A stretch of 42,268 nucleotides of DNA from Ignavibacteria bacterium (GTDB taxonomy: Bacteria; Bacteroidota; Ignavibacteria; Kapaibacteriales; UBA961). The DNA is taken from contig VGWD01000019.1 of assembly GCA_016873735.1 (NCBI GenBank), positions 1 through 42,268 of the forward strand. The letters are read 5' to 3'. Of this stretch, positions 1,467 to 41,351 are shown in pieces; positions within the stretch are counted from its first letter, which is position 1, and every line of letters begins with the position of its first letter. The translations under genes were made by a program, and so were the position numbers. The notes under the pieces are model-generated. The model had not been told where the DNA came from. It searched no databases and saw nothing but the letters and a program-made list of their open reading frames with translations.

Positions 1467-2009
1467 ATGAATATCCAACTGAAAGAATTGTGGACTATAT
1501 CAAATATGCTGAGCATTTCAAGAATGTTGCTTGCACCATTCATGTATGTATTCATCATATCTGATTTTCCACGATCATGGGTTTATGGATTGGCGCTTAT
1601 CGCATATGTTTCTGATTTGTTGGATGGTTATATGGCTCGATCCAGAAATGAAATCACTGAATGGGGTAAGATTTTGGATCCAATTGCAGATAAACTTTTT
1701 GTTGGGAGTACATGTTTGGCACTCATGTCCACTGATGACTTATCTATTTGGTATATTGCGCTTGTAATCGGACGAGATGTATTGATTGTATTGGCAGGAT
1801 TGTTTTTTGCTAATAAAGCGCAAGTCGTTTTACCTTCAACATTCATTGGAAAATCAACAGTTTTCTGGATTGGCTTAGTTCTCCTTGGAGCATTTTTCAA
1901 GGTTGAATCAAATATCCAAGTAGTGCTCTATGCCATATCCACAGGACTGATCGTTTTTTCACTCGTCCATTACGGTAAACGTATGTTCATTTCGATGCGG
2001 AATAGCTAA
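1467..2009 (+). CDS. pgsA: CDP-alcohol phosphatidyltransferase (PgsA-like)
   Basis: A 180-residue integral membrane enzyme. It carries the full CDP-alcohol phosphotransferase signature: D50, D53, G54, A57, R58, G67, D71 and D75 (D-x2-D-G-x2-A-R-x8-G-x3-D-x3-D), followed by hydrophobic helices. Family members swap CMP on CDP-diacylglycerol for an alcohol. By length and similarity, the likely product is phosphatidylglycerophosphate made from glycerol-3-phosphate. A second protein with the same motif lies at 24686-25729, fused to PgpA, so this copy could have a different acceptor alcohol. The stop overlaps the ftsY start by one base (TAATG), which implies translational coupling. The symbol is tentative; membership of the family is certain. 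Confidence 0.85.
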   Translation: MNIQLKELWTISNMLSISRMLLAPFMYVFIISDFPRSWVYGLALIAYVSDLLDGYMARSRNEITEWGKILDPIADKLFVGSTCLALMSTDDLSIWYIALVIGRDVLIVLAGLFFANKAQVVLPSTFIGKSTVFWIGLVLLGAFFKVESNIQVVLYAISTGLIVFSLVHYGKRMFISMRNS

Positions 2010-24662: not shown

Positions 24663-24685
24663 TGAAGCATCAATTCTAATTGAAC

Positions 24686-25729
24686 ATGACTTATTCACTG
24701 CCAAATATATTGAGCTTCCTTCGAGTTCTGATCGCTCCATTTGTCTATCAAATGATTCGCTCCGGAGATCATTCATTGATAATATATGCCTTAGTTATCT
24801 ACTCAATCGGGGCCATAACGGATTATCTAGATGGATTGATTGCCAGAAAATGGGAAAATACTTCTTCTTTTGGTTCATTTTTGGACCCAATCGCCGATAA
24901 AGTTCTAACAAATGCAGCTCTACTAGGACTTATGGCAATAGATATCATTGCACCTTGGATCATCATCATTATTATTGGTCGAGATATATTTATCACACTT
25001 TTGAGAATCTATGCCGACAGACATAGTATGCCCATAATAACTTCATTTACCGCAAAAGTGAAGACAGCAATTCAACTGACTTGTTCTATCATCATCCTTT
25101 TAATTTTGTCTCTGGAATTAGGAACTCAATTGATTTATTCATACGGTTATGTAATCGACATCATAATGTATGGTATTGCGTTTCTAACAGTATATACTTC
25201 TGTTGAATACTGTTTTCAAAATAAACTCCTCCTGAATCATCTATTGATTGAACCACGTATTCCCGGTTTAAAAACGATGATTGCAACTTGTTTCGGAATA
25301 GGGTATAGTCCTTTTGCACCTGGTACTATAGCATCGGTAATGTCGATTTTAGTTACAATTTTGCCAATTAGCCACTTCCAGCTTCAAATTGTAACTGTAA
25401 TAGCAATCATATTGGCCATACCATCAATTCGTTATGTTGAATCACTTCATGGTGATGATTCATCAGTGATTGTGATTGATGAAGTTATCGGAATGTGGAT
25501 AATTCTATCTGTGGATTTTGTTACCTATACTCCCGGAATATTAGTTCTAGCATTATTTCTATTTCGTCTATTTGATATTTTTAAACCCTTTCCAATCAAT
25601 ATCATCAATCGTAAAAAAGGAGCATTTTGGGTTTTGGCTGATGATATTGTTGCTGCCTTTTTGACTATTGCCTTTTTATACGGTTTTATGATTATTCAAA
25701 TCGGCTCAAATCTACTATTGATGCGGTAA
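24686..25729 (+). CDS. Fusion of phosphatidylglycerophosphate synthase (PgsA) and phosphatidylglycerophosphatase A (PgpA)
   Basis: 347 residues. The N-terminal half (1-185) is a CDP-alcohol phosphatidyltransferase with the whole signature: D46, D49, G50, A53, R54, G63, D67 and D71, plus further helices. The C-terminal half (about 194-347) is PgpA: GIGYSPFAPGT (about 204-214), VIVIDEVIGMW (about 262-272), FRLFDIFKPFPI (about 294-305) and LADDIVAAF (about 317-325). PgpA removes the phosphate from the product of PgsA, so the fused enzyme would run two successive steps to phosphatidylglycerol. No stop or frameshift separates the halves. The start is the ATG at 24686; the TTG at 24680 would sit almost on the predicted 5' end. 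The usual PgpA G before the final V-A-G is an A here. Confidence 0.88.
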   Translation: MTYSLPNILSFLRVLIAPFVYQMIRSGDHSLIIYALVIYSIGAITDYLDGLIARKWENTSSFGSFLDPIADKVLTNAALLGLMAIDIIAPWIIIIIIGRDIFITLLRIYADRHSMPIITSFTAKVKTAIQLTCSIIILLILSLELGTQLIYSYGYVIDIIMYGIAFLTVYTSVEYCFQNKLLLNHLLIEPRIPGLKTMIATCFGIGYSPFAPGTIASVMSILVTILPISHFQLQIVTVIAIILAIPSIRYVESLHGDDSSVIVIDEVIGMWIILSVDFVTYTPGILVLALFLFRLFDIFKPFPINIINRKKGAFWVLADDIVAAFLTIAFLYGFMIIQIGSNLLLMR

Positions 25730-34807: not shown

Positions 34808-34841
34808 ATTATCGTAATTGTCAAAACATTTTCAAATCAAT

Positions 34842-37800
34842 ATGAAACATATACTACACACCATACTCTTCTTTATTTACTTTGGCTTGCAATCATTCCG
34901 AATGCAAGCTCAGATTGATCAAGTCATAGGAATAACTGATGATAAATTTTCGGTCATGCGTGATCATTATTATAAACAAAACCCTAAATATTCCGAGAAA
35001 AGTTATGGTTCACAATCGGAATATCTTCGTCTAGAACATACAGACAAGAATTATACGCACTTTAAAAGATGGGAACATTTTTGGTCCAATAGACTTATGC
35101 CTGATGGAACATTTCCACCCAGCATGATGGTCCTAAATGCAATAACTCAAAAACTTGAACAAAGAGCTACTCTAAAAAATGAAACAAAGCTCGGAGCTGA
35201 TCCTCAATGGACTCTCATTGGGCCTGTACAAATCCCCAAAAATGGTGGTAATGGCAGAATCAACTGCATTACTATGCATCCTAATCTCACAAATTTGCTT
35301 TGGGCAGGTAGCGCTGCTGGAGGAGCATGGAAAAGCACAGATTTTGGCCAAACATGGGTAACTACATGTGACGATTTGTTTTCAATGGGCGTATCGGATA
35401 TAGCAATGCCTTGGAATAATCCCAATATCGTCTATTTAGCAACCGGGGATGATGATTTTGGATGTACATATACAATAGGTGTCATGAAATCAACAGATGG
35501 TGGCATTACATGGAATCAAACAGGTCTTTCTTATCAGACATCTTCAAGACAACAGATTAATAGATTACTTACACATCCGACTATTGCCGGAAAATTATAT
35601 GCAGCCACCAGTCAAGGTTTATTTGTTACAACCGATGCTGGTACAACATGGCAAAAAAAATCCACGATTAATTTCCGCGATCTTGAAAGTCGTCCTGGAT
35701 CTGACATTATGATTGGATGTGAAGGAAGAGATATTCATAGAAGCACCGATGGAGGAAATACATGGACAAAAATCACAACGTCCATACCAACTACTGTCGG
35801 TAGAATTTCAATAGCAATCAGTCCTGCAAATCCGGATTATATGTATGCATTATGTTCTGATAATGCCAAAGGATATGGTTTTGGAGGATTATACCGTTCA
35901 TCAGACGGTGGGAAAACATGGGTTTCCAGATCCACAACTCCGAATATACTCTCGCACTCAGTTGATGGATTACAAGCGGGTGGACAGGGTTGGTATGACC
36001 TAACAATAGCTTGCTCGTATAAACAACCAAATCATATCATTATAGGCGGAGTAAATATATGGCGTTCGACCGATGGCGGAGCGAATTGGACAATAAGCGC
36101 ACATTGGTATGGCGATAGGGGCACGCCTTATGTTCATGCCGATATACATGATCTAGAATATTTACCGAATTCTGACAAAGTTATCATCGCTGGTACAGAT
36201 GGAGGTGTTTCAGCCTCATCTGATAATGGATTGAATTGGGTTGACAATAGCGATGGACTTGCAATAACTCAATATTATCATGTAGCAACTTCACAAAGCT
36301 TATCACCAAGTTATGTAGGTGGTGCACAAGATAATGGAACAACCAGATATGCCTCTAATGCTTGGACTCAAGTTTTGAATGGGGATGGCATGAAATGTTT
36401 GATTCATCCAACCAATGCCCAAATTGTTTTTGGTGCCATACAAAATGGATATATCAATCGATCTACAGACGGAGGAAAGAATTTTGAAGCAAGCCTAAAC
36501 CCTGATATTGCAAAGGAAAATGGAAGATGGGTTACACCTTATGTATTTGATCCTGTTACTCCTTCAATAATGTATGCAGGGTTCAGGAATATATGGAAAT
36601 CAACAAATACTGGTCAATCTGGTACATGGAAAAGGATATCGGATTTTCCAAATACTGCTTCATCAGTTAAAATTATTTCTGTTTCTCCGGTCAATCCTAA
36701 TATCATTATTGCAATGAATGATCAAGTTGTTTACGAATCGGTTGATGGTGGTGAAACATGGTCTGCTAAAACAATGCCTTCCCCTTTATCGCCTAATAAT
36801 ATTACATCATGGGCGTTCAGTCACGATAATGAAAGTACTGCATGGGTAACTATCGATGATTTCGGAAATACCAGAGTGTATAAAACAATAAATGGTGGAA
36901 AGAATTGGAGTGACATTTCAGGAAATCTTCCTAAAATACCAACGAATGTCGTCATTCATGAAAAGGGTTCCCCTGAACGGATATATGTCGGAACAGATAT
37001 TGGAATTTACTATAGAGATACTACATCTAATGGTTGGATTGATTATAGTGAGGGACTTCCAAATACAATTGTGAGTGAATTACAAATCAATTATCCTGCA
37101 AAAACTCTCATTGCAGGGACATATGGAAGAGGTTTGTGGAAAGGTAACTTGGTTGGCTGTACAGGATTTACTGCAACTGCTTCTGCTGTCGGTCAGCTAA
37201 CTTTTTGTGCCGGCGATAGTGTTGAATTGAAAGTTAATGAGGTATATGCAGATTATCGTTGGTCAAACGGTTCAACAACAAAATCAATTTTTGTAAAACA
37301 ATCCGGATCATATACAGCTACTGTTACAGACGAGAATGGTTGTACATCCACCACAAGCCCAATAACAGTCACTACAAATCCCAAGCCAACGCCTCGAATC
37401 ACAACCACAAAAGGATCTCTTTGTGAGAATGATACAGTCGTGTTGGATGCAGGCGTATTTTCTGGTTATAAATGGTCAAATGGCGATACATCAAGAAGTA
37501 TAGTAGTATCACAACCAGGTGATTATACTGTTACTGTTGTTGGAAGTAATGGCTGTGTTGCTACTTCTTCGGTATACTCCGTAAAAAAAGGGGAAATCCC
37601 ACAGAAACCTTCGGTGATTCGCTTGACCGATACATTGCAGTCTTCCTTAATTGGTAGTTTTTATGAGTGGTATGAGAATGATGTGAAAATTCCGGGTGCA
37701 ATACAAAGAAGATATCTCCCAAAAGCTTCGAGCATCGGAAATCGATTTAAAGTCAAAATATCAAATGCAAGCCTGTGTAGTAATATTTCTGATGATTTCT

Positions 37801-38081
37801 TGTATTCACCCCTATCGGTTGAAGAAGATCTTTCTTCTGCTCTGAAGATTTATCCAAATCCTGCTCAACAAACACTGTATTTCGAATTTCCATCCACTTC
37901 ATTTGCAGCATCGATTTCAATTATTGATTTGCAAGGTAAGACAGTACTTTCTTCACGTATTGAATGTACCAAAGGATTGGTGTATGATAAAATTCGAATT
38001 GCCGATATAGTATCAGGCAGATATACTCTTAGAATTGAACAAGATAATCGCTCTTATATCATTTCTTTTGTAAAACAATAG
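34842..38081 (+). CDS. Secreted Asp-box beta-propeller protein with Ig-like repeats and T9SS sorting domain (paralogue 1)
   Basis: 1079 residues. The signal peptide (2-22) opens at the ATG 34842; upstream codons add nothing plausible. A short conserved N-terminal region has F-K-R-W-E-x-F-W ... P-D-G-x-F-P. A large propeller follows, with about ten Asp-boxes (S/T-x-D-x-G-x-T-W, e.g. STDGGITWNQ, STDGGNTWTK, SVDGGETWSA), as in sortilin/Vps10 and GH74-like folds. Two Ig-like modules come next (Y-R-W-S-N-G-S-T-T-K-S-I and Y-K-W-S-N-G-D-T-S-R-S-I), and the type A T9SS domain ends it (IYPNPAQQTLYF ... SGRYTLRI). It is exported to the cell surface. No catalytic residues can be assigned, so enzyme activity is not claimed. 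The paralogue follows after 9 bases. Confidence 0.88.
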   Translation: MKHILHTILFFIYFGLQSFRMQAQIDQVIGITDDKFSVMRDHYYKQNPKYSEKSYGSQSEYLRLEHTDKNYTHFKRWEHFWSNRLMPDGTFPPSMMVLNAITQKLEQRATLKNETKLGADPQWTLIGPVQIPKNGGNGRINCITMHPNLTNLLWAGSAAGGAWKSTDFGQTWVTTCDDLFSMGVSDIAMPWNNPNIVYLATGDDDFGCTYTIGVMKSTDGGITWNQTGLSYQTSSRQQINRLLTHPTIAGKLYAATSQGLFVTTDAGTTWQKKSTINFRDLESRPGSDIMIGCEGRDIHRSTDGGNTWTKITTSIPTTVGRISIAISPANPDYMYALCSDNAKGYGFGGLYRSSDGGKTWVSRSTTPNILSHSVDGLQAGGQGWYDLTIACSYKQPNHIIIGGVNIWRSTDGGANWTISAHWYGDRGTPYVHADIHDLEYLPNSDKVIIAGTDGGVSASSDNGLNWVDNSDGLAITQYYHVATSQSLSPSYVGGAQDNGTTRYASNAWTQVLNGDGMKCLIHPTNAQIVFGAIQNGYINRSTDGGKNFEASLNPDIAKENGRWVTPYVFDPVTPSIMYAGFRNIWKSTNTGQSGTWKRISDFPNTASSVKIISVSPVNPNIIIAMNDQVVYESVDGGETWSAKTMPSPLSPNNITSWAFSHDNESTAWVTIDDFGNTRVYKTINGGKNWSDISGNLPKIPTNVVIHEKGSPERIYVGTDIGIYYRDTTSNGWIDYSEGLPNTIVSELQINYPAKTLIAGTYGRGLWKGNLVGCTGFTATASAVGQLTFCAGDSVELKVNEVYADYRWSNGSTTKSIFVKQSGSYTATVTDENGCTSTTSPITVTTNPKPTPRITTTKGSLCENDTVVLDAGVFSGYKWSNGDTSRSIVVSQPGDYTVTVVGSNGCVATSSVYSVKKGEIPQKPSVIRLTDTLQSSLIGSFYEWYENDVKIPGAIQRRYLPKASSIGNRFKVKISNASLCSNISDDFLYSPLSVEEDLSSALKIYPNPAQQTLYFEFPSTSFAASISIIDLQGKTVLSSRIECTKGLVYDKIRIADIVSGRYTLRIEQDNRSYIISFVKQ

Positions 38082-38090
38082 TTACCATAT

Positions 38091-41000
38091 ATGCATATTT
38101 TCTCTTTGTTCATATTTGCAATCTTTATCAGTGTGCCCACGCATGCCGAAAAAGATTCAAAGTTCAGGTTTGATGGAAAAGAAACGCCGAATTTCTTTGA
38201 CATACAGCGATCTTTTTTAGAAGAATATTCAAAGCGTACCTCAAAGCTTGAAGAATCATTGGATAATGAATCCAATGGGGAAGGTATGCTCTTTCATTTT
38301 AAGCGCTGGGAATGGTTTTGGAGACAAAGAGTGTTGCCTGATGGTGAGTTCCCACAACCAATGATTTTACAGGATATTTATCAAAAAGAACTAAGAAGGT
38401 CGAATCTTGTAAAAGGTGAGAACAAACTTTTCTTGAAACCCAATTGGAAAAATCTTGGTCCTACCAATATACCTCGAGGAGGCGGAGCGGGAAGAGTCAA
38501 TGGTATTCATGTACCGGTCGGCCAAACCAACATTATTTGGGCAGCTGCTGCCGGCGGTGGAGCATGGAAATCTACGAATGGTGGAAAAACATGGCAAACA
38601 ACAACAGATAAGTTAGGTACATTGGGTGTTACGGATATTACTACTGATCCCAAGAATCCCAACATAGTGTATTTGGCTACCGGAGATGCCTTTGGAGCCG
38701 ATACATATTATGGTGCCGCTCCATTTAGTATAGGTCTAATTAAAAGCACGGATGGCGGAATCACTTGGACCCAAACCGGTCTCAATTATCAACAAAAAGA
38801 TACTCGTGCACTATCTCGCGTGATTGTTCATCCAACAAATACCTCAATCATCATTGTCGGCGGAGATAATGGGATTCATAGGTCTACGGATGGTGGTGTA
38901 ACGTTCGCAAATCGTTTTGTCGGTGATGTGAAAGACATGGAAATCAAACCCGATGATCCTTCTGTGTTATATGCTACCAGTGGCTCAAAGATTTATGTCT
39001 CAAGAGATGCAGGTGATAAGTGGACTGAGTTAAAATCTAATATCCCTTCTACAATCGGGAGAATTGCAATTGCAGTCACACCGGCTGATCCCGAAGCAAT
39101 TTATGCCGTTACCGCAAGAAGAGGGTCATGGGATTTCGGAGGATTTTACCGCACTTATGATGGGGGAGCGAATTGGGAAACAGGTGCTACCACACCAAAT
39201 ATCATTGGAAGAAATCTTCAAGGAACAGATACTGAAAATCAACAAGGTTGGTATGATCTCTGCATAGCAGTTTCCCCTGATAATCCTGATTTGATATTTG
39301 TTGGTGGAATAAATATTTGGCGTTCAACCAATGGCGGAAGTGCATGGGCAATCAATACATATTGGGTACAGAATCAAGGAAAGCCCTATGTTCATGCCGA
39401 TATTCATGATCTTGATTTCATCAATGGATCAACAGTCATTACAGGAACAGATGGTGGAGTTTCAATATCAACAAACCGTGGAACAGCTTGGACTGATATA
39501 AGCGATGGTTTGGAAATTACGCAATACTATAGAATGAGTATTTCTCAACAAAGACCGGATGTGATTATTGGTGGTGCACAAGATAATGGCACAAGTTTTC
39601 GTTCCGGTTTGGATGACTGGGCTCAGGTTTGGGGTGGCGATGGTATGGACAATGCCATAGATCCGGTGAATGATAAGTATATGTTCGTTTCTTCGCAAAA
39701 TGGAAATTTCGGAAGATCTACCAATGGCGGATCTTCATTTAGTTCAAGTATCAATTCAGCCATTACATCAGAAGAAGGTGAGTGGGTGACTCCAATCGAG
39801 TTTGCACCTAATTCTAAGATTGCCTCTGCATCCATTGCTTATGCGGGATATCGTGATGTTTGGAAAACAGATTCATTGGGTTTTTGGGACAAAACTTCTA
39901 CTTTTCCCAATAGACAATCACGTATTATGCTTTTAGCACATGCACCATCCAGACCTGGAACTCTGATTGCTTCAAATTTCAATGCTTCTTATATAACATA
40001 TGATGAAGGAAAAACATGGAGACCAATTACATTCCCTAATGGCATAGCATCTTCTATCATTACATCATTTGAATTTCATCCTAACAATGATAGTATATTC
40101 TGGATATCAATTTCAGGTTTCGGAAATAGGAAGGTCTTTCAAACTAATAATGCCGGTCTCACGGGAAATTGGTCAGATATTTCCGGAGGGATGCCTCCTA
40201 TTCCTGTAAATTGTCTGCGATATCAACCAAATTCTCCTGATAGACTATATGCAGGAACTGATTTAGGTGTGTATTATCGAGATAATGGTACAAGAGTATG
40301 GATACCATATAATGATGGATTACCCAATACTGTTGTAACTGACATTGATATACTAAAATCTGCAAAGAAACTAAGAATCTCAACGTATGGTAGAGGAACT
40401 TGGGAAGCAGATATGGTGAATTGCCCCGAATTGTCTTGTGCAGTTGATATTAAAGGAGATGTAACCTTCTGTTCCGGAGACAGTGTAATATTCAAAGCAC
40501 AAGATGGCTTTGCCTCTTATGTTTGGAGCAATGGAGCAACCACGCAATCCATCATCGTGAAGGAATCTGGAAATTACAGCATAACAGTTTATGATGCGAA
40601 TGGTTGCCCTTCAGGATTTGGCCCTATTGCTATTACCGTCAATCAAAGAAGAATTCCAAATATATCATCAAACAAAAAGGTATTCACCATTTGTAATAAT
40701 ACACCCATAACACTTGATGCAGGATCCAATTATGATAGATACAAATGGTCTACAGGTGATACTACACGGACTATATTAGTTGATAAGCCCGGTATCATAT
40801 CTGTTCTAACTACCAATAAACTTGGTTGTATTGATGGTGATACTGTAACTATTCTTCAAGGAAGCAATCCTGAAAAGCCCTTCATTACCAAGAGTAATGA
40901 TACGTTATTCTCAAGTCCTGCTCATTCATATCAATGGATGCTGGCAGATAAAGATATAGCAGGAGCAACATCTCGATTCTATGTTTTGCCTCGTTTTGCC

Positions 41001-41351
41001 AATACAAGGGATTATATGGTGAAAGCTATCTCCGAACAAGGATGTTCTACAAATTCGGATGCTATAACAGTGACCACCATTGAAGGAGGAGAATCCTCGT
41101 CATATTTCTCACTGTATCCAAATCCAGCTACACAAAGCGTCTTTATATCAGTGCCTTCATATATATCAGATGCAAATATTAACTATGAGATTATTGATAT
41201 CAAGGGTATAATGATCAAAAAAGGAATATTGCTGATACACGGCAACTCTAGTTTTGAAATTGGTTTGAGCGATATTCCCAAAGGTCAATATTGGGTGCAG
41301 ATTTACCCCCGTAAATTAAAGCCCCTTTCATTACCATTGATCATTCAATAA
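38091..41351 (+). CDS. Secreted Asp-box beta-propeller protein with Ig-like repeats and T9SS sorting domain (paralogue 2)
   Basis: 1086 residues, same architecture as its neighbour: signal peptide (MHIFSLFIFAIFISVPTHA), FKRWEWFWRQRVLPDGEFP, W-K-N-L-G-P-T-N-I-P-R-G-G-G-A-G-R-V-N, about nine Asp-boxes (STNGGKTWQT, STDGGITWTQ, TYDGGANWET), two Ig-like modules (Y-V-W-S-N-G-A-T-T-Q-S-I; Y-K-W-S-T-G-D-T-T-R-T-I), and the C-terminal T9SS signal (LYPNPATQSVFI ... KGQYWVQI). The blocks PYVHADIHDL and GGAQDNGT are shared word for word with paralogue 1, which shows tandem duplication. The overall identity is moderate by eye, so the duplication is old. A strong terminator follows. Function unknown; adhesion, polysaccharide binding or hydrolysis are all possible. 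Confidence 0.88.
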   Translation: MHIFSLFIFAIFISVPTHAEKDSKFRFDGKETPNFFDIQRSFLEEYSKRTSKLEESLDNESNGEGMLFHFKRWEWFWRQRVLPDGEFPQPMILQDIYQKELRRSNLVKGENKLFLKPNWKNLGPTNIPRGGGAGRVNGIHVPVGQTNIIWAAAAGGGAWKSTNGGKTWQTTTDKLGTLGVTDITTDPKNPNIVYLATGDAFGADTYYGAAPFSIGLIKSTDGGITWTQTGLNYQQKDTRALSRVIVHPTNTSIIIVGGDNGIHRSTDGGVTFANRFVGDVKDMEIKPDDPSVLYATSGSKIYVSRDAGDKWTELKSNIPSTIGRIAIAVTPADPEAIYAVTARRGSWDFGGFYRTYDGGANWETGATTPNIIGRNLQGTDTENQQGWYDLCIAVSPDNPDLIFVGGINIWRSTNGGSAWAINTYWVQNQGKPYVHADIHDLDFINGSTVITGTDGGVSISTNRGTAWTDISDGLEITQYYRMSISQQRPDVIIGGAQDNGTSFRSGLDDWAQVWGGDGMDNAIDPVNDKYMFVSSQNGNFGRSTNGGSSFSSSINSAITSEEGEWVTPIEFAPNSKIASASIAYAGYRDVWKTDSLGFWDKTSTFPNRQSRIMLLAHAPSRPGTLIASNFNASYITYDEGKTWRPITFPNGIASSIITSFEFHPNNDSIFWISISGFGNRKVFQTNNAGLTGNWSDISGGMPPIPVNCLRYQPNSPDRLYAGTDLGVYYRDNGTRVWIPYNDGLPNTVVTDIDILKSAKKLRISTYGRGTWEADMVNCPELSCAVDIKGDVTFCSGDSVIFKAQDGFASYVWSNGATTQSIIVKESGNYSITVYDANGCPSGFGPIAITVNQRRIPNISSNKKVFTICNNTPITLDAGSNYDRYKWSTGDTTRTILVDKPGIISVLTTNKLGCIDGDTVTILQGSNPEKPFITKSNDTLFSSPAHSYQWMLADKDIAGATSRFYVLPRFANTRDYMVKAISEQGCSTNSDAITVTTIEGGESSSYFSLYPNPATQSVFISVPSYISDANINYEIIDIKGIMIKKGILLIHGNSSFEIGLSDIPKGQYWVQIYPRKLKPLSLPLIIQ

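Follow-up and report, generated by a model that had tools for sequence, protein, structure and literature searches.

A PgsA–PgpA fusion in an Ignavibacteria bacterium: a probable bifunctional phosphatidylglycerophosphate synthase and phosphatase

Introduction

PgsA and PgpA have been described as two proteins. Known PgsA, as in Escherichia coli and Staphylococcus aureus (7DRJ/7DRK), is a stand-alone enzyme of about 180 residues, and known PgpA is a separate protein. CDP-alcohol transferases possess six membrane helices (PMC9385802). E. coli is not viable without any phosphatidylglycerophosphate (PGP) phosphatase (PMC8027125).

The same two superfamilies occur together in BT_1523/BT_1525 of Bacteroides, which act sequentially on a phosphorylated lipid and lead to phosphatidylinositol via PIP (PMC9246714). 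CDP-alcohol transferases fused to a partner of the same pathway are also on record, namely IPCT-DIPPS of Archaeoglobus (4mnd) and a CDP-alcohol transferase-HAD hydrolase fusion of Prevotella veroralis (PMC9246714). The locus described here resembles these systems, but differs from BT_1523/BT_1525, which are separate genes with an inositol head group and MIPS alongside (PMC9246714), and from both fusions, in which the partner domains and the head groups are different. In the protein described here, a complete PgsA is followed by a PgpA domain, which forms the C-terminal half.

Results

The window, the whole stretch of 42,268 nucleotides analyzed, contains a fused pgsA-pgpA gene at 24686-25729 on the plus strand. 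It is a single open frame from ATG to TAA with no interruption, encoding 347 aa plus stop. An alternative in-frame TTG start at 24680 would give 349 aa, and the frame 24680-25729 is likewise open throughout. The earlier note had claimed that both enzymes lie in one frame, and both families indeed matched the same uninterrupted protein: PF01066 covered residues 6-158 with 113.8 bits against a curated cut-off of 22, and PF04608 covered residues 200-334 with 104.3 bits against one of 28. The E-values were approximately 1e-30 for each half, which excludes a chance match. A short linker at 25226-25276 (+), about residues 183-199, lies in the gap between the two Pfam matches, and the alignment revealed that its length is nearly constant among fused relatives. 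The Pfam and NCBIfam searches returned no single family model that spans the two halves.

The PgsA half, a CDP-alcohol phosphatidyltransferase domain (24695-25153, +), passed the NCBIfam pgsA equivalog TIGR00560 with 114.9 bits against a cut-off of 109.1, and did not reach the narrower PRK10832 model (70 vs 304). The full catalytic motif, DxxDGxxAR(8x)GxxxDxxxD (24821-24898, +), is present, and the D, G, A, and R residues in it are shared with E. coli PgsA and do not vary among 14 fused relatives. The signature noted earlier is present as D46 to D71 when numbered from the ATG, or residues 48-73 from the TTG, at the same positions as in E. coli PgsA taken from the annotated K-12 genome. In the confidently predicted model of the fusion (pLDDT 83, pTM 0.74), residues 7-180 form six long helices, which a short connection joins to a mostly helical, hydrophobic PgpA half. 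The best structural match of the model, over residues 5-182, was S. aureus PgsA (7drj; Z 17.4, rmsd 3.2, 172 residues), whose six-helix fold is reproduced in the predicted PgsA half. PIP synthases ranked lower (Z 14.9), and 4mnd aligned with a Z of 10.8; the structural matches were all taken up by the PgsA half.

The PgpA half (25277-25681, +) is a phosphatidylglycerophosphatase A domain. Its best NCBIfam model was also phosphatidylglycerophosphatase A, with a score under the cut-off of that narrow model (71.6 vs 226). All the PgpA motifs listed in the earlier note were found: GYSPFAPGT (208-216), VIVIDE (263-268), FRLFDIFKPFPI (295-306), and DD (321-322). They are the same as in E. coli PgpA of the annotated K-12 genome, and none of the catalytic residues whose loss would have spoken against two activities is missing among the positions conserved with E. 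coli. A sequence search of this half against solved structures gave no match, and its assignment therefore rests on the family match and the motifs.

Three PF01066 proteins are encoded in the genome: the fusion, a phosphatidylserine-synthase type protein scoring above the pssA cut-off, and a 180-residue protein. Only the fusion scored above the pgsA equivalog cut-off, and no other PF04608 protein was found in the genome. By these family scores, the genome has no second clear PgsA and no second PgpA besides the fusion. Four PAP2-family proteins were also detected.

The 180-residue protein, a second CDP-alcohol phosphatidyltransferase of the window, is encoded at 1467-2009 (+) directly upstream of an apparent ftsY. 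The models for CDP-alcohol-type cardiolipin synthase and pgsA scored about equally on it, both under the cut-off. A genome-wide search for a PLDc_2 protein found none, which makes the product of 1467-2009 a candidate CDP-diacylglycerol-dependent cardiolipin synthase. Elsewhere in the window, at 34818-41351 (+), two consecutive large paralogues of 1087 and 1086 aa carry repeated 'STDGG'-like motifs in their translations, suggestive of propellers of the sialidase/glycosidase type. From the translation, their C-terminal end resembles a secretion-sorting domain.

A PgpA domain was found in 40 of 61 related genomes, and in 17 of these 40, distributed over five families, it was fused to PgsA in frames of 302-388 residues. 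The window's own family showed the fusion in every genome where PgpA was found (11/11); the three genomes in which it was not found rank lowest in completeness within that family. Another species of the same genus (G002) has an orthologue of exactly the same length with 91% protein identity. Between these two genes dN/dS was 0.063 for the PgsA half, 0.084 for the PgpA half, and 0.078 overall, and the values for the halves indicate that both are under purifying selection. In other members of the order, pgsA and pgpA are codirectional genes that lie next to each other or overlap. The same adjacency or overlap, again in one direction, was found in 33 of 80 loci of other, mostly distant bacteria, labelled as Neomarinimicrobiota, Zixibacteria, Ignavibacteriae, Balneolaceae, Gemmatimonadetes, Omnitrophota, Latescibacteria, and others. 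A MAG labelled Spirochaetes led to a second phylum, where the match ran through the two halves without a stop in 2 of 198 genomes; in a further 12, the halves lay in line and were separated by one to three stops.

In some relatives of the same order (G016, G018, G025, G027, G032, G038, G043, and others, which make up families f4 and f6 and a part of f3), PgsA is present, whereas a genome-wide search found no PgpA. PgpA is therefore not indispensable across the order, and another PGP phosphatase probably acts in these relatives. Proteins of the PAP2 family, which might also dephosphorylate PGP, are possible candidates.

A tree was built of 49 concatenated PgsA and PgpA sequences. Topology tests rejected a single origin of all fused sequences (AU p 8e-59), as well as a single origin of the fused sequences of the window's own order (AU p 4e-6). 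Fused sequences appeared in six places of the tree, and equal-cost parsimony gave six changes of the fused state, with the root uncertain. One fused genome, G023, was nested in a well-supported clade of split genes. Repeated fusion and fission may fit alike in some lineages where support is modest. On this sequence evidence, neighboring pgsA and pgpA have been joined several times in evolution.

In one relative (G015, L016 2077-2082), the pgsA stop codon TAA is followed immediately by the in-frame ATG of pgpA. Because the junction is bare and in frame, a single substitution within the stop codon would join the genes, and judged by its sequence this junction is a naturally occurring precursor, one step away from the fusion. 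The fused form probably arose by loss of a stop codon, or by a frame shift, between adjacent and probably translationally coupled genes. The fusion, its intact motifs, the selection on it, and its recurrent origin can all be read from the genomes.

Discussion

The protein at 24686-25729 is very probably a bifunctional PGP synthase and PGP phosphatase in a single integral membrane protein. The earlier note had proposed consecutive enzymes of phosphatidylglycerol synthesis in one frame, and this proposal agrees with the family matches, the residue conservation, the purifying selection, and the fused or adjacent genes of relatives. In the N-terminal six-helix PgsA half, glycerol-3-phosphate would displace CMP from CDP-diacylglycerol to give PGP, from which the C-terminal PgpA half would remove the terminal phosphate to give phosphatidylglycerol. 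The fusion would fix a 1:1 ratio of the two enzymes. The active site of CDP-alcohol transferases is located at the membrane-cytosol face. Given this position and the six helices of the PgsA half, the PgpA half most likely starts on the cytoplasmic face, beside the site from which PGP is released. We infer that both activities are present and share one side of the membrane; the two active sites are probably cytoplasmic and within reach of the same lipid.

How PGP passes between the sites may be viewed in two ways. We lean slightly toward a bifunctional enzyme without channelling, in which only co-expression and co-location in the membrane are fixed and PGP diffuses freely. This is a sub-case of the bifunctional reading, and the confidence placed in the two overlaps. 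The persistence of split neighbors in close relatives is consistent with free diffusion, and since small changes at the junction can fuse adjacent genes, no kinetic gain need be assumed. However, the tree requires about six changes of the fused state, which is also seen in a second phylum and in all 11 PgpA-positive genomes of the window's family; these observations hint at an advantage. An obligate two-site enzyme that hands PGP straight from synthase to phosphatase, so that PGP does not build up in the membrane, is plausible but less likely than not.

It is improbable that the pair makes phosphatidylinositol, with a PIP synthase half and a PIP phosphatase half as in BT_1523/BT_1525 of Bacteroides. 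The experimental work on Bacteroides thetaiotaomicron indicated that a PgpA-family protein beside a CDP-alcohol transferase is likely a PIP phosphatase (PMC9246714). A PgpA match alone is thus no proof that PGP is the substrate, because the PgpA-like protein of the Bacteroides pair is most probably a PIP phosphatase. However, the first half scored above the pgsA equivalog cut-off, reached only 27 bits with the PIPSynth model (cut-off 170), and was not matched by the PIPSynBT1523 model. In the predicted model the best structural match was PgsA and not PIPS. In addition, a genome-wide search for inositol-1-phosphate synthase (PF01658) found none in this 99.9% complete genome, whereas Bacteroides in the control set has this enzyme.

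Although the draft genome is in 61 contigs and relatives exist with split genes separated by a single in-frame stop, a joining of two genes by assembly or sequencing error, which the earlier note had named as a reason to abandon the fusion, is extremely unlikely and does not apply here, as independent genomes carry the fusion (an equal-length frame of 91% identity in another species, and 17 fused genomes including G023, which was assembled as one contig) and dN/dS is 0.078 over the whole frame.

None of the open-access papers searched describes a PgsA-PgpA fusion; subscription journals and domain-architecture databases lay outside the search. Automatic annotations of such fused proteins may well exist. 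The novelty is modest: the architecture is new, and both enzymes are classical, with no new chemistry.

The repeated joining of the genes ties the two enzymes together more tightly than previously known. PGP build-up is thought to be harmful. Direct hand-over of PGP, if true, would be a natural, repeatedly evolved case in which two integral membrane enzymes of phospholipid synthesis channel an intermediate. The fusion could serve as a single-protein tool for making phosphatidylglycerol and for the structure of PgpA together with PgsA. The recurrent joining of synthase and phosphatase suggests that PgsA and PgpA encoded separately by neighboring genes may also work as a physical pair.
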